Assembly: GCA_018433765.1 (NCBI GenBank)
Contig: JAHDQO010000005.1
Location: forward strand, 1-64,000
Origin: Tissierellales bacterium
Lineage (GTDB): Bacteria; Bacillota; Clostridia; Tissierellales; Sedimentibacteraceae
Direction of reading: 5' to 3'
Length of the DNA: 64,000 nt
A program made the translations under genes and the position numbers. The notes under the pieces are model-generated. The model saw nothing but the letters and a program-made list of their open reading frames with translations, searched no databases and was not told the origin of the DNA. Below are positions 2-42,994 of this stretch, piece after piece (position 1 is the first letter of the stretch; the number at the start of each line of letters is the position of its first letter).

Positions 2-145
2 GAAGATGCAGTAAAAACACTTTGGAAAAACAATATATATGCAGAAAGTGGAATGGGATGCACAGGACCAATAGTGTTAGTAAACGAAGCAAAACTTAAA
101 GATGCAAGAAAAATATTAGCTGAAGCTGAATTTGTTGCTAATTAA
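2..145 (+). CDS. C-terminal end of a protein resembling glycine/betaine reductase component C alpha subunit (partial)
   Basis: Only the last 47 codons lie in the window; the 5' part is beyond the left edge. The readable end contains ESGMGCTGPIVLVNE followed by a Lys/Ala-rich helix and stops at TAA 143-145. From memory this resembles the C-terminus of the component C alpha subunit (GrdD, a PlsX-like protein) of Stickland glycine/sarcosine/betaine reductases, which makes acetyl phosphate from a carboxymethyl-thioester intermediate. That would fit an amino-acid-fermenting clostridium. The fragment is too short for certainty; the full upstream gene would settle it. A rho-independent terminator follows directly, so this is the last gene of its operon. 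Confidence 0.5.
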   Translation, partial: EDAVKTLWKNNIYAESGMGCTGPIVLVNEAKLKDARKILAEAEFVAN

Positions 146-157
146 AAAACTAATTAA

Positions 158-182
158 AAAAGGGCTTTAAAGTCCTTTTTTA
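158..182 (+). terminator. Rho-independent terminator after the left-edge gene
   Basis: Stem AAAAAAGGGCTT / AAGTCCTTTTTT with a two-base loop and a T-run, 13 bases after the stop codon at 145. Confidence 0.8.
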
Positions 183-258
183 CATACAAATAAAGTAAAC
201 TCTATCTATTTATCCTAGATTTTAGTTTTGCGTATAAATTATTATATAATTAATCACG

Positions 259-272
259 TTACATTAATGTAA
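259..272. promoter_or_regulatory. Perfect 14-bp palindrome in the CGGC gene promoter region
   Basis: TTACATTAATGTAA equals its own reverse complement. A TATAAT-like -10 lies at 290-295, so the palindrome covers the -35 area of the promoter for the 347 gene. This placement suits a dimeric regulator. Which one is unknown. Confidence 0.4.
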
Positions 273-346
273 AAAATGTTTTTTTATGTTATAATTAAAC
301 AAAAATAGTAATTGATTTATATGAATAATTAAAAGAAGGTGTTTAT

Positions 347-790
347 ATGAAGAAGATAGGTATTATTATTTGTGGACGCTACCAAACTTGTGGCGGAGGA
401 AAATGTTTTCGAGCGTTAAGGGAGCATGAAGGAGGCTTTTCTATATATCCAAAAGATGAAGAATTAGTCATCGTTGGATATTCGCATTGTGGAGGCTGCC
501 CCGGAGGAAATATTGAATATGTTCCTGCTGAAATGATAAAGAATGGTGCTGAAGCTATTCATTTAGCTACCGGGATGATTGTTGGTTATCCACCATGTCC
601 AAGAATCAAGCAATTTAAAGAATTTATTGAAAGTTATTACAATGTACCAGTTGTGGTTGGAACACACCCAGTCCCTTTAAAGTATTATGATGCACATAAT
701 AAATTATCTTTTTGGGACAAGATGAAGATGGGTGAAATTGCAAATCATATGCTTGATGAAGATAAAGAAATTATGGAAGCATATAATTAA
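347..790 (+). CDS. CGGC domain-containing protein, putative metal-binding
   Basis: This 147-residue protein has the Cys-rich pattern of the CGGC family: an N-terminal CGRYQTCGGGKC (residues 9-20), then SHCGGCPGG near residues 46-54, and PPCPR near residue 83. The CGGC family is a predicted metal-binding group of unknown function, common in anaerobes. Length matches a single-domain member and there is no signal peptide, so it should be cytosolic. The ATG at 347 follows an AGAAGGTG ribosome site. It is a single-gene unit between a terminator at 158-182 and one at 816-882. A palindrome overlapping its promoter suggests it is regulated, perhaps by metal or redox state (inference). Confidence 0.85.
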   Translation: MKKIGIIICGRYQTCGGGKCFRALREHEGGFSIYPKDEELVIVGYSHCGGCPGGNIEYVPAEMIKNGAEAIHLATGMIVGYPPCPRIKQFKEFIESYYNVPVVVGTHPVPLKYYDAHNKLSFWDKMKMGEIANHMLDEDKEIMEAYN

Positions 791-37546: not shown

Positions 37547-37575
37547 TTGACAAAATATTCAATAATATGTATAAT
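37547..37575 (+). promoter_or_regulatory. Consensus sigmaA promoter with no assigned gene
   Basis: TTGACA, a 17-base spacer and TATAAT, both boxes perfect. It points towards the RiPP genes, whose first start codon is about 600 bases away, across an antisense transposase fragment. Confidence 0.7.
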
Positions 37576-37651: not shown

Positions 37652-37963
37652 TTAAATAAGATTCATAATACTACTTAAATATAAAATTGCATAAATTTCC
37701 CTAGATTCAAGGAGTATGCTAACTTTCATAGAACAATACTCTTTTACTTTTTTAATAGTAGAAACAGCCTTTTCTAGAGAATCTAAACTGTCATGAAGTA
37801 CTTTAAAAAGGTTTATGAACAGATTTATGATCAGGTGTAAGTATTGAACATAACTAAAATAAACACCGACATCAATTCCAACTCTAATTAAATCAAAATA
37901 ATACATTTGTGTTGCTTCTTTCAAAAGTAGATATATAAGAGATCCATTAAACATTGAGTACAC
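37652..37963 (-). pseudogene. Fragment of an IS110-family transposase (N-terminal part)
   Basis: About 103 codons. From residue 20 the frame reads MYYFDLIRVGIDVGVYFSYV and then FKVLHDSLDSLEKAVSTIKKVKEY and MKVSILLES. This matches, from memory, the N-terminal RuvC-like domain of IS110-family (DEDD) transposases: the Asp in GIDVG and the Glu in LLES are catalytic positions. After LLES the sequence loses the usual TGHY motif and soon stops, so the remaining roughly 300 residues, including the Serine-containing C-terminal domain, are absent. It is a decayed remnant, showing past insertion next to the RiPP genes. Confidence 0.7.
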
Positions 37964-38185
37964 AAGTGATTAACCTAGGAGGTGATTATTTATCCTCTTA
38001 TTCAATTAAAAGATTAGTATAAAAATTGACTGATGTAAAACTGTAAATATTTAATAAGTTAAATAAGATAACAACTTGAATATTAGCTTTACAAAAACAG
38101 TAAATAATTCGGGTGATTAACTTATAGAAAGTAAAAAACTATGTAACTTTATGTTACAAATATTTTGTACTAGGAGGTAAATATT

Positions 38186-39478
38186 ATGAAAGAATCTTAC
38201 TACAATTTTTTTTATCCATATGAACATGAAGAGGGGAAATATGTAGCTTATAATGCTAGATCAAATGCTTTAGCACTAATAGAAGAGAAAAATTATAAAA
38301 AATTAGTAAATTTTAGAGAAAAGAATTATGAAATTGATGATGAAAAATTAATAGAAGATTTAAAGAAGGGGTTTTTCTTAATTGATGATGATGATGATGA
38401 ATTAGCATTAATTAGATATAACTTATTGAGAAACAAATATTCAACAAATAGATTAGGACTTACTATAGCGCCTACATCTGATTGTAATTTCAGATGTATT
38501 TACTGTTACGAAAAGAATAGCATTAATACCTCATATATGTCAGAAGAAACACAGAAAAACCTAATAAACTTTATTAAAAATCAACTCAATAATATAAGAT
38601 ATCTCTCAATTTTGTGGTATGGTGGAGAGCCGTTATTAGCAATAGATATTATAGAAAAGCTATCAAATGAAATTATTGAATTGTGCAATAAATATAATGT
38701 AGTATATAACTCAGATATGATATCAAATGGTTATTTATTATCTAAAAAAAATATTGAAACAATAAATAAATGTGAAATTAAATCTATTCAAATTACTTTG
38801 GATGGACCTCCTAAAATACATGATCAACGTCGCTTTTTAGAAGGTGGTAAAGGAACATTTGAAAAAATTATTTATAATTTATATGAATACAAAAATATTA
38901 TTCCTCCCGTAGCTCTTCGAATTAATGTTGACAAGAAAAATGTTGATTCTATTAATGAAATTATCCAAATTTTAAAAGATAAAAATTTATTGGACAAGGT
39001 AAATCCTTATTTAGGTTATGTTGAAAACATTGATGATATATATGATAATAATAACTGTTTAAAATATAATGAATTTTCAAAATTAGATTTCTCGTTTAAT
39101 AATAGTGAATTAAATAGTTCTACTATTACTGATAAATATCCAACAATACTATCTAGTTTTTGCGCAGCCGATAAGCAAAATAGTATTGTTATCAATTCGG
39201 ATGGGAAAATGTATAAATGTTGGAATGATATTGGAATAAAAGAAATGAGTGTAGGAGATTTAAATAATAGTAATTTTAAGCCAAGCAAAATATTATATGA
39301 CTACATGTTATACGATCCGACAAAGGATAATGTGTGTTCAGTATGCAAATTTATGCCTATATGTATGGGAGGGTGTCCGAGCAGACGAATAAGAAAAAAT
39401 GCAGATAGATGTAGCAGGTATAAATATACTATAAATGAATATATACAAACTATTGCACATTATATAAAAATGAGATAA
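38186..39478 (+). CDS. Radical SAM/SPASM domain RiPP maturase
   Basis: A 430-residue enzyme. The SAM-binding [4Fe-4S] motif CNFRCIYC has Cys100, Cys104 and Cys107, followed by WYGGEPLL (the GGE motif). The C-terminal SPASM domain holds the Cys sets FCAADKQN, KCWND and CSVCKFMPICMGGCPSRR, for auxiliary Fe-S clusters. The N-terminal 90 residues, with a run of Asp, may recognise the leader peptide. SPASM enzymes next to Cys-rich peptides make thioether or related side-chain crosslinks. The nearest named groups I can think of are the Clo7bot and CLI_3235/CcpM-type maturases; I cannot decide between them. The ATG follows AGGAGG. The peptide gene starts 104 bases downstream. Confidence 0.92.
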   Translation: MKESYYNFFYPYEHEEGKYVAYNARSNALALIEEKNYKKLVNFREKNYEIDDEKLIEDLKKGFFLIDDDDDELALIRYNLLRNKYSTNRLGLTIAPTSDCNFRCIYCYEKNSINTSYMSEETQKNLINFIKNQLNNIRYLSILWYGGEPLLAIDIIEKLSNEIIELCNKYNVVYNSDMISNGYLLSKKNIETINKCEIKSIQITLDGPPKIHDQRRFLEGGKGTFEKIIYNLYEYKNIIPPVALRINVDKKNVDSINEIIQILKDKNLLDKVNPYLGYVENIDDIYDNNNCLKYNEFSKLDFSFNNSELNSSTITDKYPTILSSFCAADKQNSIVINSDGKMYKCWNDIGIKEMSVGDLNNSNFKPSKILYDYMLYDPTKDNVCSVCKFMPICMGGCPSRRIRKNADRCSRYKYTINEYIQTIAHYIKMR

Positions 39479-39509
39479 GAAAGTTTAAAATTGTTATTAA
39501 TAGTAGTTG

Positions 39510-39787
39510 TTAACAAAGTGCATAGCTTGTTTTACAATTTTAATTACCTTAAAACAATAAAAAGATAGAAAGGTGGAATAACATGGAATATCTAGTTAAT
39601 GGAATAACTTCAACATCAGCCAATTATATTTTTGAATGTGATGAATGTGATCAGTATTCACCTAAGAATACTAGGTGCTGGTTGTATTGCCCAGGTAATT
39701 GGTGCCCAAATGTCACACCAAGATAATAAATAGTAGTAAGTATATAATCTAAGTTTAGATATAATTAAAGCTAATGTACTTTGTTAA
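39510..39787. repeat. Inverted repeat flanking the precursor peptide gene
   Basis: TTAACAAAGTGCATAGC (39510-39526) and GCTAATGTACTTTGTTAA (39770-39787) are complementary apart from one inserted base and one transition. They enclose the peptide gene with about 240 bases between them. Confidence 0.5.
39583..39726 (+). CDS. Cys/Trp/Pro-rich RiPP precursor peptide (47 residues)
   Basis: A short gene with the ribosome site AGAAAGGTGG, between the radical SAM and ABC exporter genes. The peptide starts MEYLVNGITSTSANY, a plausible leader. The core is IFECDECDQYSPKN, then RCWLYCPGNWCPNVTPR. It has five Cys (19, 22, 32, 36, 41), two Trp (33, 40) and four Pro. There is no double-Gly cleavage site. Position, size and composition mark it as the substrate of the 38186 enzyme. 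CDECD fits a Cys-X3-Asp spacing like that used for thioether links in freyrasin, which is only a hint. Family membership is unclear; it may be a new precursor type. Confidence 0.82.
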   Translation: MEYLVNGITSTSANYIFECDECDQYSPKNTRCWLYCPGNWCPNVTPR

Positions 39788-39875
39788 TATAAAAAAAGAG
39801 GATAATAATTAATAAAATAAATGTTTAATTTTATTATAGTAGAGCTAGGTAATAATAAACAACAGAGGTTCATTA

Positions 39876-41495
39876 ATGAAAATATTTAAATTTTGTAAAA
39901 AGTATTTATTAAAACACAAAGTTATGTTATTAATTTATATAATGATAGGCATTTTAATAAATATTATATCACTCGTTATACCATATATTTCAGGACAATT
40001 TATTGACAATTTGGTTGAAGAGAAAAACATACAGTTTTTGATTAAATATTCTGTTATGTTTGCTGTTCTAAATATAAGTAGTATAATTTTAGGTTATGTT
40101 TTCAATATGATTTATGTTCAATATCAAACAACTGCTGGTTTTGAGCTTAATAGTGATATATTAAACCATTTAAAAAAAGTGTCAATATCATATTTTAGTA
40201 AATCAGATACCGTTTATCTTAATCAGCGTATAAACAATGATTCTAATGGACTTATTATATTTAGTATGAATATAATTTTAGACGTATTTATTAATATACT
40301 AATTATTATATTTACTTCACTAATACTAATTAAATTGAATATTAAAATTACAATAGTTCTAATTATTTTACTATGTGTATATTTTCTTGTTTATCTGTTA
40401 TTTAAGAATACTATATTTACTAAAAGCTTTGAATTAAAAGAAGCTCAAGATAAATTTTTCTCAAAGCTTAATGAACAATTATTCAAAGTAAAATTTATAA
40501 AAATTCATGCAGTTAACAATTTATTTTGTCTAAGATTGAATAAGAGCTTTATGCATTTGTTATCGAAAGCTTTAGGATATCAGAAAATTTCATATATATT
40601 TTCAGGACTGGATAATACAATAATGGTTTTTGCTAAGATTACATTGTATGTAATAGGAGGATTGGAAATAATAAAAGGTAATTTAACTATTGGTTTTTTT
40701 ACTATTATTCTTTCTTATTTTAGCAAATTGTTGAATTCAATGAAATACTTTTTTAATTTAGGAAAAATATATCAAGATAATTTTGTATCTTATAAAAGAC
40801 TGCAGGATTTATTAAAGCTAAATAAGGAAACCAATGGTGAAAAATTAATAGATTCAATTAAGTCGATACAAATAGATAAACTGTCTTTTTCTTATAATAA
40901 TAAAGTTATTTTCCAAGATTATTCGAAACAATTTTTAAAAGGAAAAGTCTATTGTATTATAGGAGATAATGGTGTAGGAAAAACTACATTAGTTAATCTT
41001 TTGTTAGGTTTATATATAGATGAATTCGAAGGTAATATTAAGTATAATGATACTGATATAAAAGATATAAATATGTACAATATGAGACATGAATTAATAG
41101 GTGTTTTAGAGCAAGAACCAATATTATTAAATGATACAATATTGTATAATTTAAGCTTAGATAGTAATTGTATTGAACATAATAAGCTAAAAGAATTTAT
41201 AGAGATATTAAATTTTAATAAGTATTTTAATACGCTTACTAAGGGTTTTGAAACAGTTATTAATGAAAAATCAAATAATATATCTGGTGGAGAAAAACAA
41301 AAAATTGCGCTTATAAGAGTACTTTTAAAAGATATGGATTTAATGATATTAGATGAACCTACTTCAGCTCTAGATATTCATAGTAAAGAGAAATTTATTA
41401 ATTACATAAATAGTATAAAAAAAGATAAAATAATTATTTTTATTACACATGATAAGAGTTTAGTTAAAATGAGCGATGAAGTTATACAGTTATAA
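39876..41495 (+). CDS. ABC transporter, fused membrane and ATPase domains (RiPP exporter)
   Basis: A 539-residue half-transporter. About six helices fill residues 1-300 (LLIYIMIGILINIISLVIPYISG first). The ATPase follows: Walker A GDNGVGKTT near residue 368, signature NISGGEKQK and Walker B LMILDEPTSALD. There is no N-terminal C39 peptidase domain, so the leader must be removed elsewhere. It probably works as a homodimer exporting the modified peptide, or as self-protection. AGAGGTT precedes the ATG. A strong terminator follows, ending the cluster. Confidence 0.9.
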   Translation: MKIFKFCKKYLLKHKVMLLIYIMIGILINIISLVIPYISGQFIDNLVEEKNIQFLIKYSVMFAVLNISSIILGYVFNMIYVQYQTTAGFELNSDILNHLKKVSISYFSKSDTVYLNQRINNDSNGLIIFSMNIILDVFINILIIIFTSLILIKLNIKITIVLIILLCVYFLVYLLFKNTIFTKSFELKEAQDKFFSKLNEQLFKVKFIKIHAVNNLFCLRLNKSFMHLLSKALGYQKISYIFSGLDNTIMVFAKITLYVIGGLEIIKGNLTIGFFTIILSYFSKLLNSMKYFFNLGKIYQDNFVSYKRLQDLLKLNKETNGEKLIDSIKSIQIDKLSFSYNNKVIFQDYSKQFLKGKVYCIIGDNGVGKTTLVNLLLGLYIDEFEGNIKYNDTDIKDINMYNMRHELIGVLEQEPILLNDTILYNLSLDSNCIEHNKLKEFIEILNFNKYFNTLTKGFETVINEKSNNISGGEKQKIALIRVLLKDMDLMILDEPTSALDIHSKEKFINYINSIKKDKIIIFITHDKSLVKMSDEVIQL

Positions 41496-41565
41496 GATTA
41501 TATGTATTGAAAAATTCTGTATTTATTATAAGTACTTTGCTAATATATATAATACTTAATAATAA

Positions 41566-41604
41566 ACATTAGTTTAATGATATATTATTAAACTAATGTT
41601 TTTT
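41566..41604 (+). terminator. Terminator of the RiPP cluster
   Basis: AACATTAGTTTAAT / ATTAAACTAATGTT with a seven-base loop and TTTT. Confidence 0.85.
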
Positions 41605-41752: not shown

Positions 41753-42994
41753 ATGAATAAAGATTTTTTCACAAATAATAGAAAAAAGTTTATGGAGAAA
41801 ATGGAAGATAACTCTTTAGCAGTATTTTTTTCAGGTAAACCTTCAAGGGGATCTGCAGATCAGTTTACAGAATTTGAAGTGGATAGAAACTTTTATTATT
41901 TAACAGGAATTGAAAGAACAGACATGATGCTTGTTATGACAAAAGAATTAGGTAATACAACAGAAACTCTGTTTATTCCGCCTATAGATGAGCATTACGA
42001 AAAATGGATAGGTATTCTTATGCGTAAGAATGAAGCATCTGAAACCTCAGGTATACAGAATATACAAGATAATATTGCTTTTGAAAAAACACTTGCATCT
42101 TTTATAGGATCAAGGATACGACCTGAAAACATATATCTTTTGTTCTATTATTCAGAACTTAATGAAAGTTTAAATCAATATATGGTATTAGCATCTAAAA
42201 TAAGAGATAGATTTCCATCTTTAAATATTAAAAATTCTCTTAATATTATGACTGAACTTAGAAGTGTAAAAACACCTGAGGAAATACAAAAAATAAGAGA
42301 ATCAATTAAAGATACTAATAAAGCTCTTGAAAATGTTATGTCAAATTTAAAACCTGATACATATGAATATGAAGCTAGGTATTATTTTGAAAGTTATCTT
42401 CTTAAGAGAAATATTAGAAAAGGTTTCACAACAATAGCGGCATCAGGAAAGAATGGGGTTATACTACACTATGATAATCCAATAAAGAAAATGAAATCTG
42501 GAGATCTTTTAATGCTTGACTTAGGATCGTTAACATCTTTATATTCTTCAGATATATCAAGAACATATCCTGTTAATGGTAAATTTACTGATAGACAAAA
42601 AGAAATATACAATATAGTACTTGAAACTCAAAAACTAGCTATGTCAGAAATGAAACCGGGAATTACAGAAATGGAATTAGAAAAGAAAGTTATAAAATTT
42701 TATGCTAAGGCATTAAAAAGCATAAAACTTATTAAAGACGAAAGCGAAGTTTCCAGATACTATTATCATAGTATTGGGCATCCATTAGGACTAGATGTTC
42801 ATGATCTAAGAAGGAAAGATAGAACTCTTGTTGAAAATGGAGTGTATACTGTTGAACCGGGATTATATATTGCGGAAGAAGGTATAGGAATAAGAATAGA
42901 AGATGATGTTCTTCTAACAAAAAATGGAGCAGAAAACTTATCTATTGAAATAATAAAAGAAATAAATGACATAGAGAATTTTATGAAACACTAA
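41753..42994 (+). CDS. Xaa-Pro aminopeptidase (M24B family, aminopeptidase P N-terminal domain)
   Basis: A 413-residue pita-bread metallopeptidase. The N-terminal domain (1-165) has FFSGKPSRGSADQFTEFEVDRNFYYLTGIE, typical of aminopeptidase P. The catalytic domain has LDLGSLTSLYSSDISRTYPV (two Asp), IGHPLGLDVHD (His), EPGLYI (Glu) and IRIEDDVLLT (Glu), the full dinuclear Mn/Co set. It removes N-terminal residues preceding proline in the cytosol, in keeping with peptide nutrition. TGGAGGTAG precedes the ATG. It stands alone between two terminators. Confidence 0.93.
   Translation: MNKDFFTNNRKKFMEKMEDNSLAVFFSGKPSRGSADQFTEFEVDRNFYYLTGIERTDMMLVMTKELGNTTETLFIPPIDEHYEKWIGILMRKNEASETSGIQNIQDNIAFEKTLASFIGSRIRPENIYLLFYYSELNESLNQYMVLASKIRDRFPSLNIKNSLNIMTELRSVKTPEEIQKIRESIKDTNKALENVMSNLKPDTYEYEARYYFESYLLKRNIRKGFTTIAASGKNGVILHYDNPIKKMKSGDLLMLDLGSLTSLYSSDISRTYPVNGKFTDRQKEIYNIVLETQKLAMSEMKPGITEMELEKKVIKFYAKALKSIKLIKDESEVSRYYYHSIGHPLGLDVHDLRRKDRTLVENGVYTVEPGLYIAEEGIGIRIEDDVLLTKNGAENLSIEIIKEINDIENFMKH

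Follow-up and report, generated by a model that had tools for sequence, protein, structure and literature searches.

A Putative Clo7bot-Related Radical SAM Peptide Cluster of a Tissierellales Bacterium and a Cys-X2-Z Bias in the Peptides of Related Loci

Introduction

Radical S-adenosylmethionine (SAM) enzymes link Cys residues of ribosomally synthesized and post-translationally modified peptides (RiPPs) in several registers. Streptosactin contains the rings Cys25-Ser28 and Cys31-Gly34 formed by alpha-carbon bonds, as reviewed in PMC8172795. PapB links the Cys and Asp of Cys-X3-Asp and also accepts other spacings, according to the accessible portion of PMC9413430, and an Asn20-Cys23 link is given for NxxcA in the part of PMC8326336 at hand. 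Here we describe a locus found in the window, a 64,000-nucleotide stretch of contig JAHDQO010000005.1 from a Tissierellales bacterium, whose listing of open reading frames (ORFs) places a radical SAM/SPASM maturase gene, a gene for a 47-residue peptide, and an ATP-binding cassette (ABC) exporter gene in this order on one + strand. The locus is very probably a RiPP system, and it is best explained as a leader-guided operon that would make thioethers between Cys and the third residue downstream (Cys-X2-Z), to which we assign a probability of roughly 0.5. The observation new to this analysis is a Cys-X2-Z bias at position +3 across peptides linked to related maturases. The names Clo7bot, TIGR04333, TIGR04334, and TIGR04463, which are used below for the comparison, were not found in the open-licence literature searched.

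Results

The genes of the locus and the elements of its peptide are located as follows.

38186..39478, + strand, radical SAM/SPASM maturase gene, 430 aa (ORF, domain, alignment, and model evidence)
39583..39726, + strand, precursor peptide gene, 47 aa, MEYLVNGITSTSANYIFECDECDQYSPKNTRCWLYCPGNWCPNVTPR (ORF and leader profile)
39583..39603, + strand, leader motif MEYLVNG, residues 1-7 (relatives' leaders)
39646..39657, + strand, predicted crosslink unit C22-X2-Y25 (family statistics)
39676..39687, + strand, predicted crosslink unit C32-X2-Y35 (family statistics)
39688..39699, + strand, predicted crosslink unit C36-X2-N39 (family statistics)
39876..41495, + strand, ABC exporter half-transporter with transmembrane and nucleotide-binding domains, 539 aa, without C39 peptidase domain (ORF and domain matches)

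The spacing C-X9-15-G-X4-C, CX2CX5CX3C, and C is the class criterion of the SPASM domain. The maturase shows this 7-Cys motif as C326-X13-G-X4-C345, C384-X2-C387-X5-C393-X3-C397, and C409, in addition to CX3CX2C at residues 100-107, and thereby belongs to the radical SAM/SPASM maturases. The Cys residues of both motifs showed no variation in two alignments, one of 16 and one of 40 sequences, the window included. The SPASM domain model TIGR04085 gave 56.6 bits against its cut-off of 27, and Pfam SPASM gave 15.3, which is under its 21.5. The structure model of the maturase, with a predicted local distance difference test (pLDDT) score of 93.6, matched the folds of 5WHY and 5WGG (Z 26.1 and 25.8) over as many as 398 residues within 4..427 of the model; we take these two to be CteB, the enzyme of the SCIFF ranthipeptide. 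Among the fold matches anSME ties with this pair at Z 26.1 and TigE comes next (Z 23.8), and 5WGG is the nearest solved maturase by sequence. Residues 1-84 form a beta3-alpha3 domain in the model, which is consistent with a predicted RiPP recognition element, a leader-binding winged-helix domain at the N terminus; in comparisons of the whole model, the alignments start at residue 4 with 5WGG and at residue 1 with TigE. In a maturase tree, which left out L046, L056, L068, and L091 (broken or odd frames) and L065 and L081 (duplicates), the window fell with L057 and L139 into a 14-row group supported at 95/97, and the true Clo7bot maturase L011 belonged to a different group of 10 rows (99/98). 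The 14-row group is enclosed by a 20-row fork with a support of 87/83, not starred, which was taken as the clade hereafter. The best maturase identities were 49-50%.

The 47-residue peptide, which contains the string CWLYCPGNWCPN, carries Cys at positions 19, 22, 32, 36, and 41 together with two Trp and four Pro, exactly the composition given in the first-pass annotation. Such Cys richness is within chance, as at least 5 Cys were counted in 8 of the 234 window ORFs of 30-120 aa. Since five-Cys short frames are thus not rare in the window, the leader was compared with those of frames beside related maturases. Candidate frames having at least 4 Cys, a 4-base ribosome-binding run, and a distance of up to 600 bases were found at 50 of 101 related loci, and a profile of residues 2-7 was built from 70 candidates at these 50 loci, with the window excluded and no leader criterion applied. 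Some of the candidates are chance frames, since 36 of the 70 fit the broad leader pattern. On this profile the peptide ranked first among 542 window starts, with a score of 6.81 against 4.81 for the runner-up; this rank and the position between maturase and exporter are the distinguishing marks of the frame. The nearest relatives' leaders read MEYLING (L038 and L039, with a GTG start), MEYLVHP (L139), and MEYLVKP (L058). When counted by reading, 18 of the 19 other clade loci have a leader-type Cys-rich frame, which lies approximately 1.9 and 3.3 kb away in L060 and L045, respectively, and the order maturase-precursor-exporter occurs likewise in L057. A ribosome-binding-like site, AAAGGTGG, ends 6 nt upstream of the peptide ATG; it is weaker than most and, as read by eye, would fail the 4-base-run filter applied to the relatives.

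These comparisons suggest that the 47-residue frame is very probably a genuine precursor and, as first proposed, likely the substrate of the maturase; a lack of small homologous frames beside related maturases, named at that time as a refutation, was not borne out, since comparable ones were found there. A frame that arose by chance or is not the substrate, with the true precursor elsewhere, is a highly improbable alternative. Cys-rich ORFs are common by chance, peptide homologs were absent both from plasmids and from the 26 other genomes of its family, and L062 is the sole clade locus without a comparable frame, all of which count against our reading; the leader rank, the ribosome-binding-like site, and the L057-like position between maturase and exporter argue for a genuine precursor.

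The residues surrounding Cys were then counted in 24 clade peptides, which correspond to 29 related peptides, including loci of a wider 26-row fork, minus L018c, L038, L047b, L053, and L140 (near copies or extra members). Adjacent Cys were absent from the 24 peptides (0 vs 20.5 expected) and Cys-X2-Cys was rare (7 vs 15.7), whereas Cys-X3-Cys (48 vs 13.4) and Cys-X4-Cys (31 vs 11.7) were common. Position +3 after Cys was enriched in Leu, Arg, His, Gln, Asn, Lys, and Tyr and depleted of Gly, Ala, Ser, Thr, Ile, and Pro, as exemplified by the counts of Gly (7 vs 16.2), Ser (5 vs 14.7), and Thr (2 vs 15.1). The class Z, LRHQNKYFWMDE, which denotes an unbranched beta-methylene with further atoms, was defined on this clade set and tested elsewhere. 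Excluding Cys partners, Z occupied +3 at 135 of 166 positions in the 24 clade peptides (z 8.5), at 150 of 191 in 41 hold-out peptides of other clades (z 6.8), and at 42 of 50 in a third set of 8 later-found peptides (z 4.5), compared with 1232 of 2268 in 614 chance Cys-rich control ORFs (z 0.6), from which frames with a leader-like start were omitted. The hold-out consisted of 31 script-picked peptides (at least 4 Cys, a 4-base ribosome-binding run, the leader M-x-[FYWLIV]-[LIVM], within 600 bases) and 10 hand-added Clo7bot-type peptides, and the third set was chosen by eye for the leader motif. The frequency of Z at +3 exceeded the peptide's own base in 24/24 clade and 37/41 hold-out peptides. 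Depletion was repeated in the hold-out for Gly (3 vs 19.0) and Ser (4 vs 15.0), where Leu showed no enrichment, Glu was depleted, and Val was somewhat enriched.

The spacing to the next Cys was rejected as the source of this bias, which persists when no Cys stands at +4 (94/117 clade, 96/123 hold-out). At position -1 without Cys at -4, the frequency of Z was near base (58/125 and 74/146). A class-free divergence for all 73 peptides, including the discovery set, peaked at +3 (0.360 bits, z 28.8), followed by +4 (z 7.4) and +2 (z 4.2). SCIFF and three further radical SAM precursors encoded in the genome of the window did not show the bias (6/27). Three pairs of the window peptide, C22-Y25, C32-Y35, and C36-N39, agree with the pattern; the two remaining Cys do not, C19 having C22 and C41 having V44 at +3. 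The core, described at first as matching no precursor family that could be named with confidence, is unusual in its details and partly follows the Cys-X2-Z grammar seen across the family; the precursor matched no NCBIfam model at E up to 1, TIGR04333 included.

Several points weigh against taking the +3 residue as the acceptor. The class Z spans 12 of the 20 residues and was picked on the clade set, in which its members Phe, Trp, and Met were not enriched. In the hold-out, Glu (2 vs 7.0) and Leu (9 vs 10.6) were not enriched at +3 although they are Z members, and Val, which is outside Z, was not depleted in either set (10 vs 8.5 and 18 vs 11.5); its tolerance implies that a methylene is not strictly required. 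Position +2 is biased as well, with Pro and Thr up and Z down, and the last Cys of the clade peptides is unbiased at +3 (10/23). Taken by itself, the window peptide does not reach significance, with Z at 3 of its 4 non-Cys +3 positions against a base of 0.56, and it is atypical because its C19-X2-C22 spacing is one that the clade disfavours. The +3 bias could also arise from enzyme recognition or a turn preference instead of the acceptor. The unenriched Z members and the tolerated Val weaken the step to the beta carbon.

The +3 residue bias bears indirectly on membership in the ranthipeptides, the class of non-alpha thioethers, and the beta carbon is tentatively favoured over the alpha carbon because Gly, Ala, Ser, and Thr are avoided at +3. 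Sactipeptide chemistry would build the same i-to-i+3 rings with sulfur on the alpha carbon, for which streptosactin is an un-nested precedent in the available part of PMC8172795, and tolerance of Val at +3 agrees with it. We consider it unlikely: Pro is depleted at +3 along with those four residues, whereas streptosactin uses Ser and Gly, and the product of the enzyme that 5WGG is taken to represent is a gamma-thioether, as far as the accessible portions of PMC8326336 and PMC11002830 tell. A PapA- or NxxC-type ranthipeptide, in which Cys19-X3-Asp23 or Asn29-X2-Cys32 would be linked, receives some support from the PapB and NxxcA links mentioned above and from the presence of each motif once in the window peptide. 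Both were rejected as a family motif on the counts in the 29 related peptides, where Cys-X3-Asp was under-represented (4 vs 8.2 in shuffled peptides) and Asn-X2-Cys was near chance (14 vs 12.3). Z at offsets +4 and -3 equals base, and the maturase scored 135.6 bits on the PapB model NF047865, which does not reach its cut-off of 340, and we regard this type as improbable. More improbable still is that Trp or Tyr would be joined by carbon-carbon or cyclophane links in place of thioethers. The Cys-rich part holds two Trp and two Tyr, and the cyclophane maturase YhhB is a distant match at 74 bits, but its cut-off is 445 bits and the signal across the family, obtained by comparing positions around Cys, has that residue at its centre.

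The exporter matched ABC_membrane and ABC_tran. C39 peptidase was not among the 15 Pfam families listed, so that the exporter does not qualify as a peptidase-containing ABC transporter, in agreement with the first-pass annotation. A near full-length homologous exporter is located on the same strand in 12 of the 19 clade loci. It had also been expected that a separate protease is needed for leader removal. Homologs of an S41 peptidase lie near the maturase in 5 of the 19 clade loci (L038, L039, L139, L045, and L061), and none was detected in the 64-kb window at E up to 1e-5. Only proteins homologous to those of L038, L039, and L139 enter this count, and L038 and L039 are close copies. The S41/tricorn-like peptidase genes occupy 4479-5777 in L038, 4441-5742 in L039, and 4402-5844 in L139, with others in L045 and L061, and Pfam S41 was confirmed for the L038 and L139 proteins. 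The S41 peptidase is a candidate leader protease for this part of the family. The same genome encodes an unlinked, lipoprotein-like S41 protein (L143) that is 33% identical to that of L038, and one of its proteins is above the C39 cut-off. The available part of a review on RiPP leader proteases (PMC10885120) showed none of the S41-type terms looked for, and S41 leader removal in bacterial radical SAM RiPPs was not found in the literature searched, which did not cover all papers bearing these words.

The next gene, which encodes an Xaa-Pro aminopeptidase (41753-42994), was rejected as a member of the cluster. It is present in 23 of 27 family genomes, and in none of 11 relatives' loci was it adjoined by maturase, precursor, or exporter; 9 of these loci include approximately 1.5 kb of upstream sequence and 2 include less than 300 bases. 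The enzyme could act on the peptide in trans.

The following signals accompany the genes.

38172..38178, + strand, maturase ribosome-binding site AGGAGGT (read in sequence)
39569..39576, + strand, peptide-gene ribosome-binding-like site AAAGGTGG (read in sequence)
39864..39869, + strand, exporter ribosome-binding-like site AGAGGT (read in sequence)
41564..41601, + strand, intrinsic-terminator-like hairpin, then T run (folding vs shuffles)

The hairpin at 41564-41601 has 17 bp and -16.6 kcal/mol (z -5.5), which was equalled by 0 of 200 shuffles. The trio of genes on one strand closed by a terminator was therefore annotated correctly at first, with the hairpin sitting just beyond 41495, the cluster end then assigned. 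A simple terminator scan missed this hairpin because its stem is A+T-rich; the sole match of that scan is inside the maturase gene. Both intergenic gaps of the cluster folded no better than their shuffles (z -0.36 and 1.06). The cluster would be read as one transcript. The G+C content is 0.253 in the maturase gene, 0.213 in the exporter gene, and 0.354 in the peptide gene, against 0.281 for the window. A perfect TTGACA-N17-TATAAT match is located on the + strand at 37547-37575, approximately 610 bases upstream of the maturase start, and no + strand ORF of at least 30 aa is listed between them. Either a transcript with a long untranslated leader would start here, or the promoter has nothing to do with the cluster; the total number of such matches is at chance level (63 vs 61.5). 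The 800-base gap also contains a 103-aa ORF on the - strand (37652-37963) with no Pfam or NCBIfam match. The search for known RNAs nearby returned a single sub-threshold match to an animal microRNA (E 1).

At E up to 1e-60, the maturase was found in 23 of 249 genomes of the order, the window's genome included, which is the only one within its own family; more distant relatives occur in many phyla (best 80 of 458 loci). The precursor was found in 1 of 27 family genomes, namely its own. By this distribution the cluster is accessory. A phage or plasmid origin was rejected: as DNA, 7 plasmid records match only ATPase stretches covering 3-5% of the query. The maturase protein matched 143 plasmid records, each with less than 60% identity, and 29 phage records, of which the best (39%) is an unverified, unannotated one, and a close-relative scan detected no close relatives in viral contigs. 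Related radical SAM genes were seen on two plasmids of Sarcina sp. JB2, beside an ABC transporter on the 11.5-kb NZ_CP051759.1 (L013) and beside a major facilitator superfamily transporter on the 10-kb NZ_CP051762.1 (L012); neither carries a gene annotated as precursor. Three related maturases stand within 8 kb in another genome (L149/L151, G922:C1:547562-555083), where a 43-aa five-Cys peptide lies between two of them.

The genome of the window contains about five radical SAM peptide systems, this cluster included. In L003 (G000:C33:6157-10452, 830-1415) a radical SAM maturase whose best model is CefB (172 of 600 bits) is adjoined by two GCGCGC-repeat peptides, one of which was scanned without an NCBIfam match. 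L009 (G000:C33:2733-6158) on the same contig has a RumMC-like maturase (493 of 720 bits), an ABC-ATPase-like gene as judged by eye, and a 79-aa Cys-containing peptide. L006 (G000:C33:28783-32355) has a CcpM maturase above its cut-off with a 69-aa Cys-rich peptide, and L008 (G000:C36:261835-265995) is a SCIFF pair above both cut-offs (668.5 and 83.8 bits).

Discussion

The genes, families, leader similarity, gene order, and Cys-X2-Z statistic were computed directly, and from them a mechanism can be proposed. The ribosome would make the 47-residue precursor from a small RiPP operon, and the maturase would bind the N-terminal MEYLVNG leader of this precursor through its own N-terminal recognition domain. 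This enzyme, with which we pair the peptide as substrate, would then join core Cys residues to the residue three downstream. The bonds would most likely be sulfur-to-beta-carbon thioethers forming small, un-nested, four-residue rings, here C22-Y25, C32-Y35, and C36-N39, with a predicted mass change of about -6 Da, and C19 and C41 would be free or disulfide-paired. The ABC exporter would carry the product out. Leader cleavage would fall to a protease whose gene lies outside the cluster, and the lipoprotein-like S41-type enzyme found unlinked in the same genome may be the one. The steps of this proposal are not equally secure. On the family statistics we lean toward an i-to-i+3 register of Cys, whichever carbon is bonded; the beta carbon within it is a tentative choice, and the alpha carbon would be a clearly less likely one. 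That exactly the three links named are formed is somewhat doubtful.

A wider rule may be put forward tentatively for the Clo7bot/TIGR04463-like superfamily, in which each Cys would be linked to the beta carbon of residue i+3 with broad acceptors (Asn, Lys, Tyr, Arg, Gln, His, Asp, and in part Leu), giving chained four-residue thioether rings. The window peptide would then be a small member of this group with three rings, two closed on Tyr and one on Asn. No such rule for these maturases was found in the literature searched. Clo7bot-like maturases are widespread, and with a sequence rule for the partner of Cys, concrete structures could be put to the test for many Cys-rich peptides that lack an assignment. 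If the rule is true, a thioether enzyme with broad acceptors and a fixed register would serve the making of cyclic peptides. In Clostridium beijerinckii, sporulation genes went down and the agr locus went up when the SCIFF ranthipeptide genes were disrupted, as reported in a review (PMC8102284). By this analogy, signalling appears as likely a role for the present peptide as killing, that is, an antimicrobial one.

Comparison with Known Systems

Streptosactin, the product of GggB, resembles the window peptide in its un-nested i-to-i+3 rings, which are described in the accessible part of PMC8172795 and only predicted here; it differs in that its alpha-carbon bonds go to Ser and Gly, both avoided at +3 in the present family. 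The SCIFF/thermocellin (CteB) and freyrasin (PapB) systems likewise combine a SPASM enzyme with a Cys-rich substrate, CteB being the nearest solved enzyme by sequence. The SCIFF maturase model TIGR03974 is not reached (80.8 bits vs 425), nor is that of PapB, as given above. The SCIFF precursor is characterized by six Cys in 45 residues, whereas the window peptide has five Cys and no TIGR03973 match, and the SCIFF of this genome was among the precursors without Cys-X2-Z bias. Freyrasin differs further by its array of Cys-X3-Asp, a motif that is single in the window peptide. The CcpM/CLI_3235 type (TIGR04068) shares the pairing of a clostridial Cys-rich peptide with a radical SAM enzyme. Membership in it was rejected at 102 bits against a cut-off of 500, and this genome has a separate CcpM of 518.5 bits, so that CLI_3235 should be dropped from the nearest candidates proposed at first. 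CefB is also remote (222 bits vs 600).

TIGR04463 is similar over residues 6-421 of the maturase (270.4 bits), which is below its cut-off of 525. Clo7bot, the other candidate named initially, did prove to be the nearest named family. Its maturase model TIGR04334 aligns end to end (residues 2-422) with 316.4 bits, its leaders are short and of the MKYIVKP kind and precede a Cys-rich core, and L011 also has ABC genes nearby. Full Clo7bot membership was not reached, as the cut-off of TIGR04334 is 600 bits and the precursor matched no NCBIfam model; for comparison, the true member L011 scores 731.6 on TIGR04334 and a Clo7bot-type peptide from L052 scores 50.3 against 31 on TIGR04333. The window further differs by its separate clade and by a single precursor 3' of the maturase, in place of the seven annotated Clo7bot peptides upstream in L011. 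The cluster thus probably represents a Clo7bot-related, as yet unnamed subfamily.

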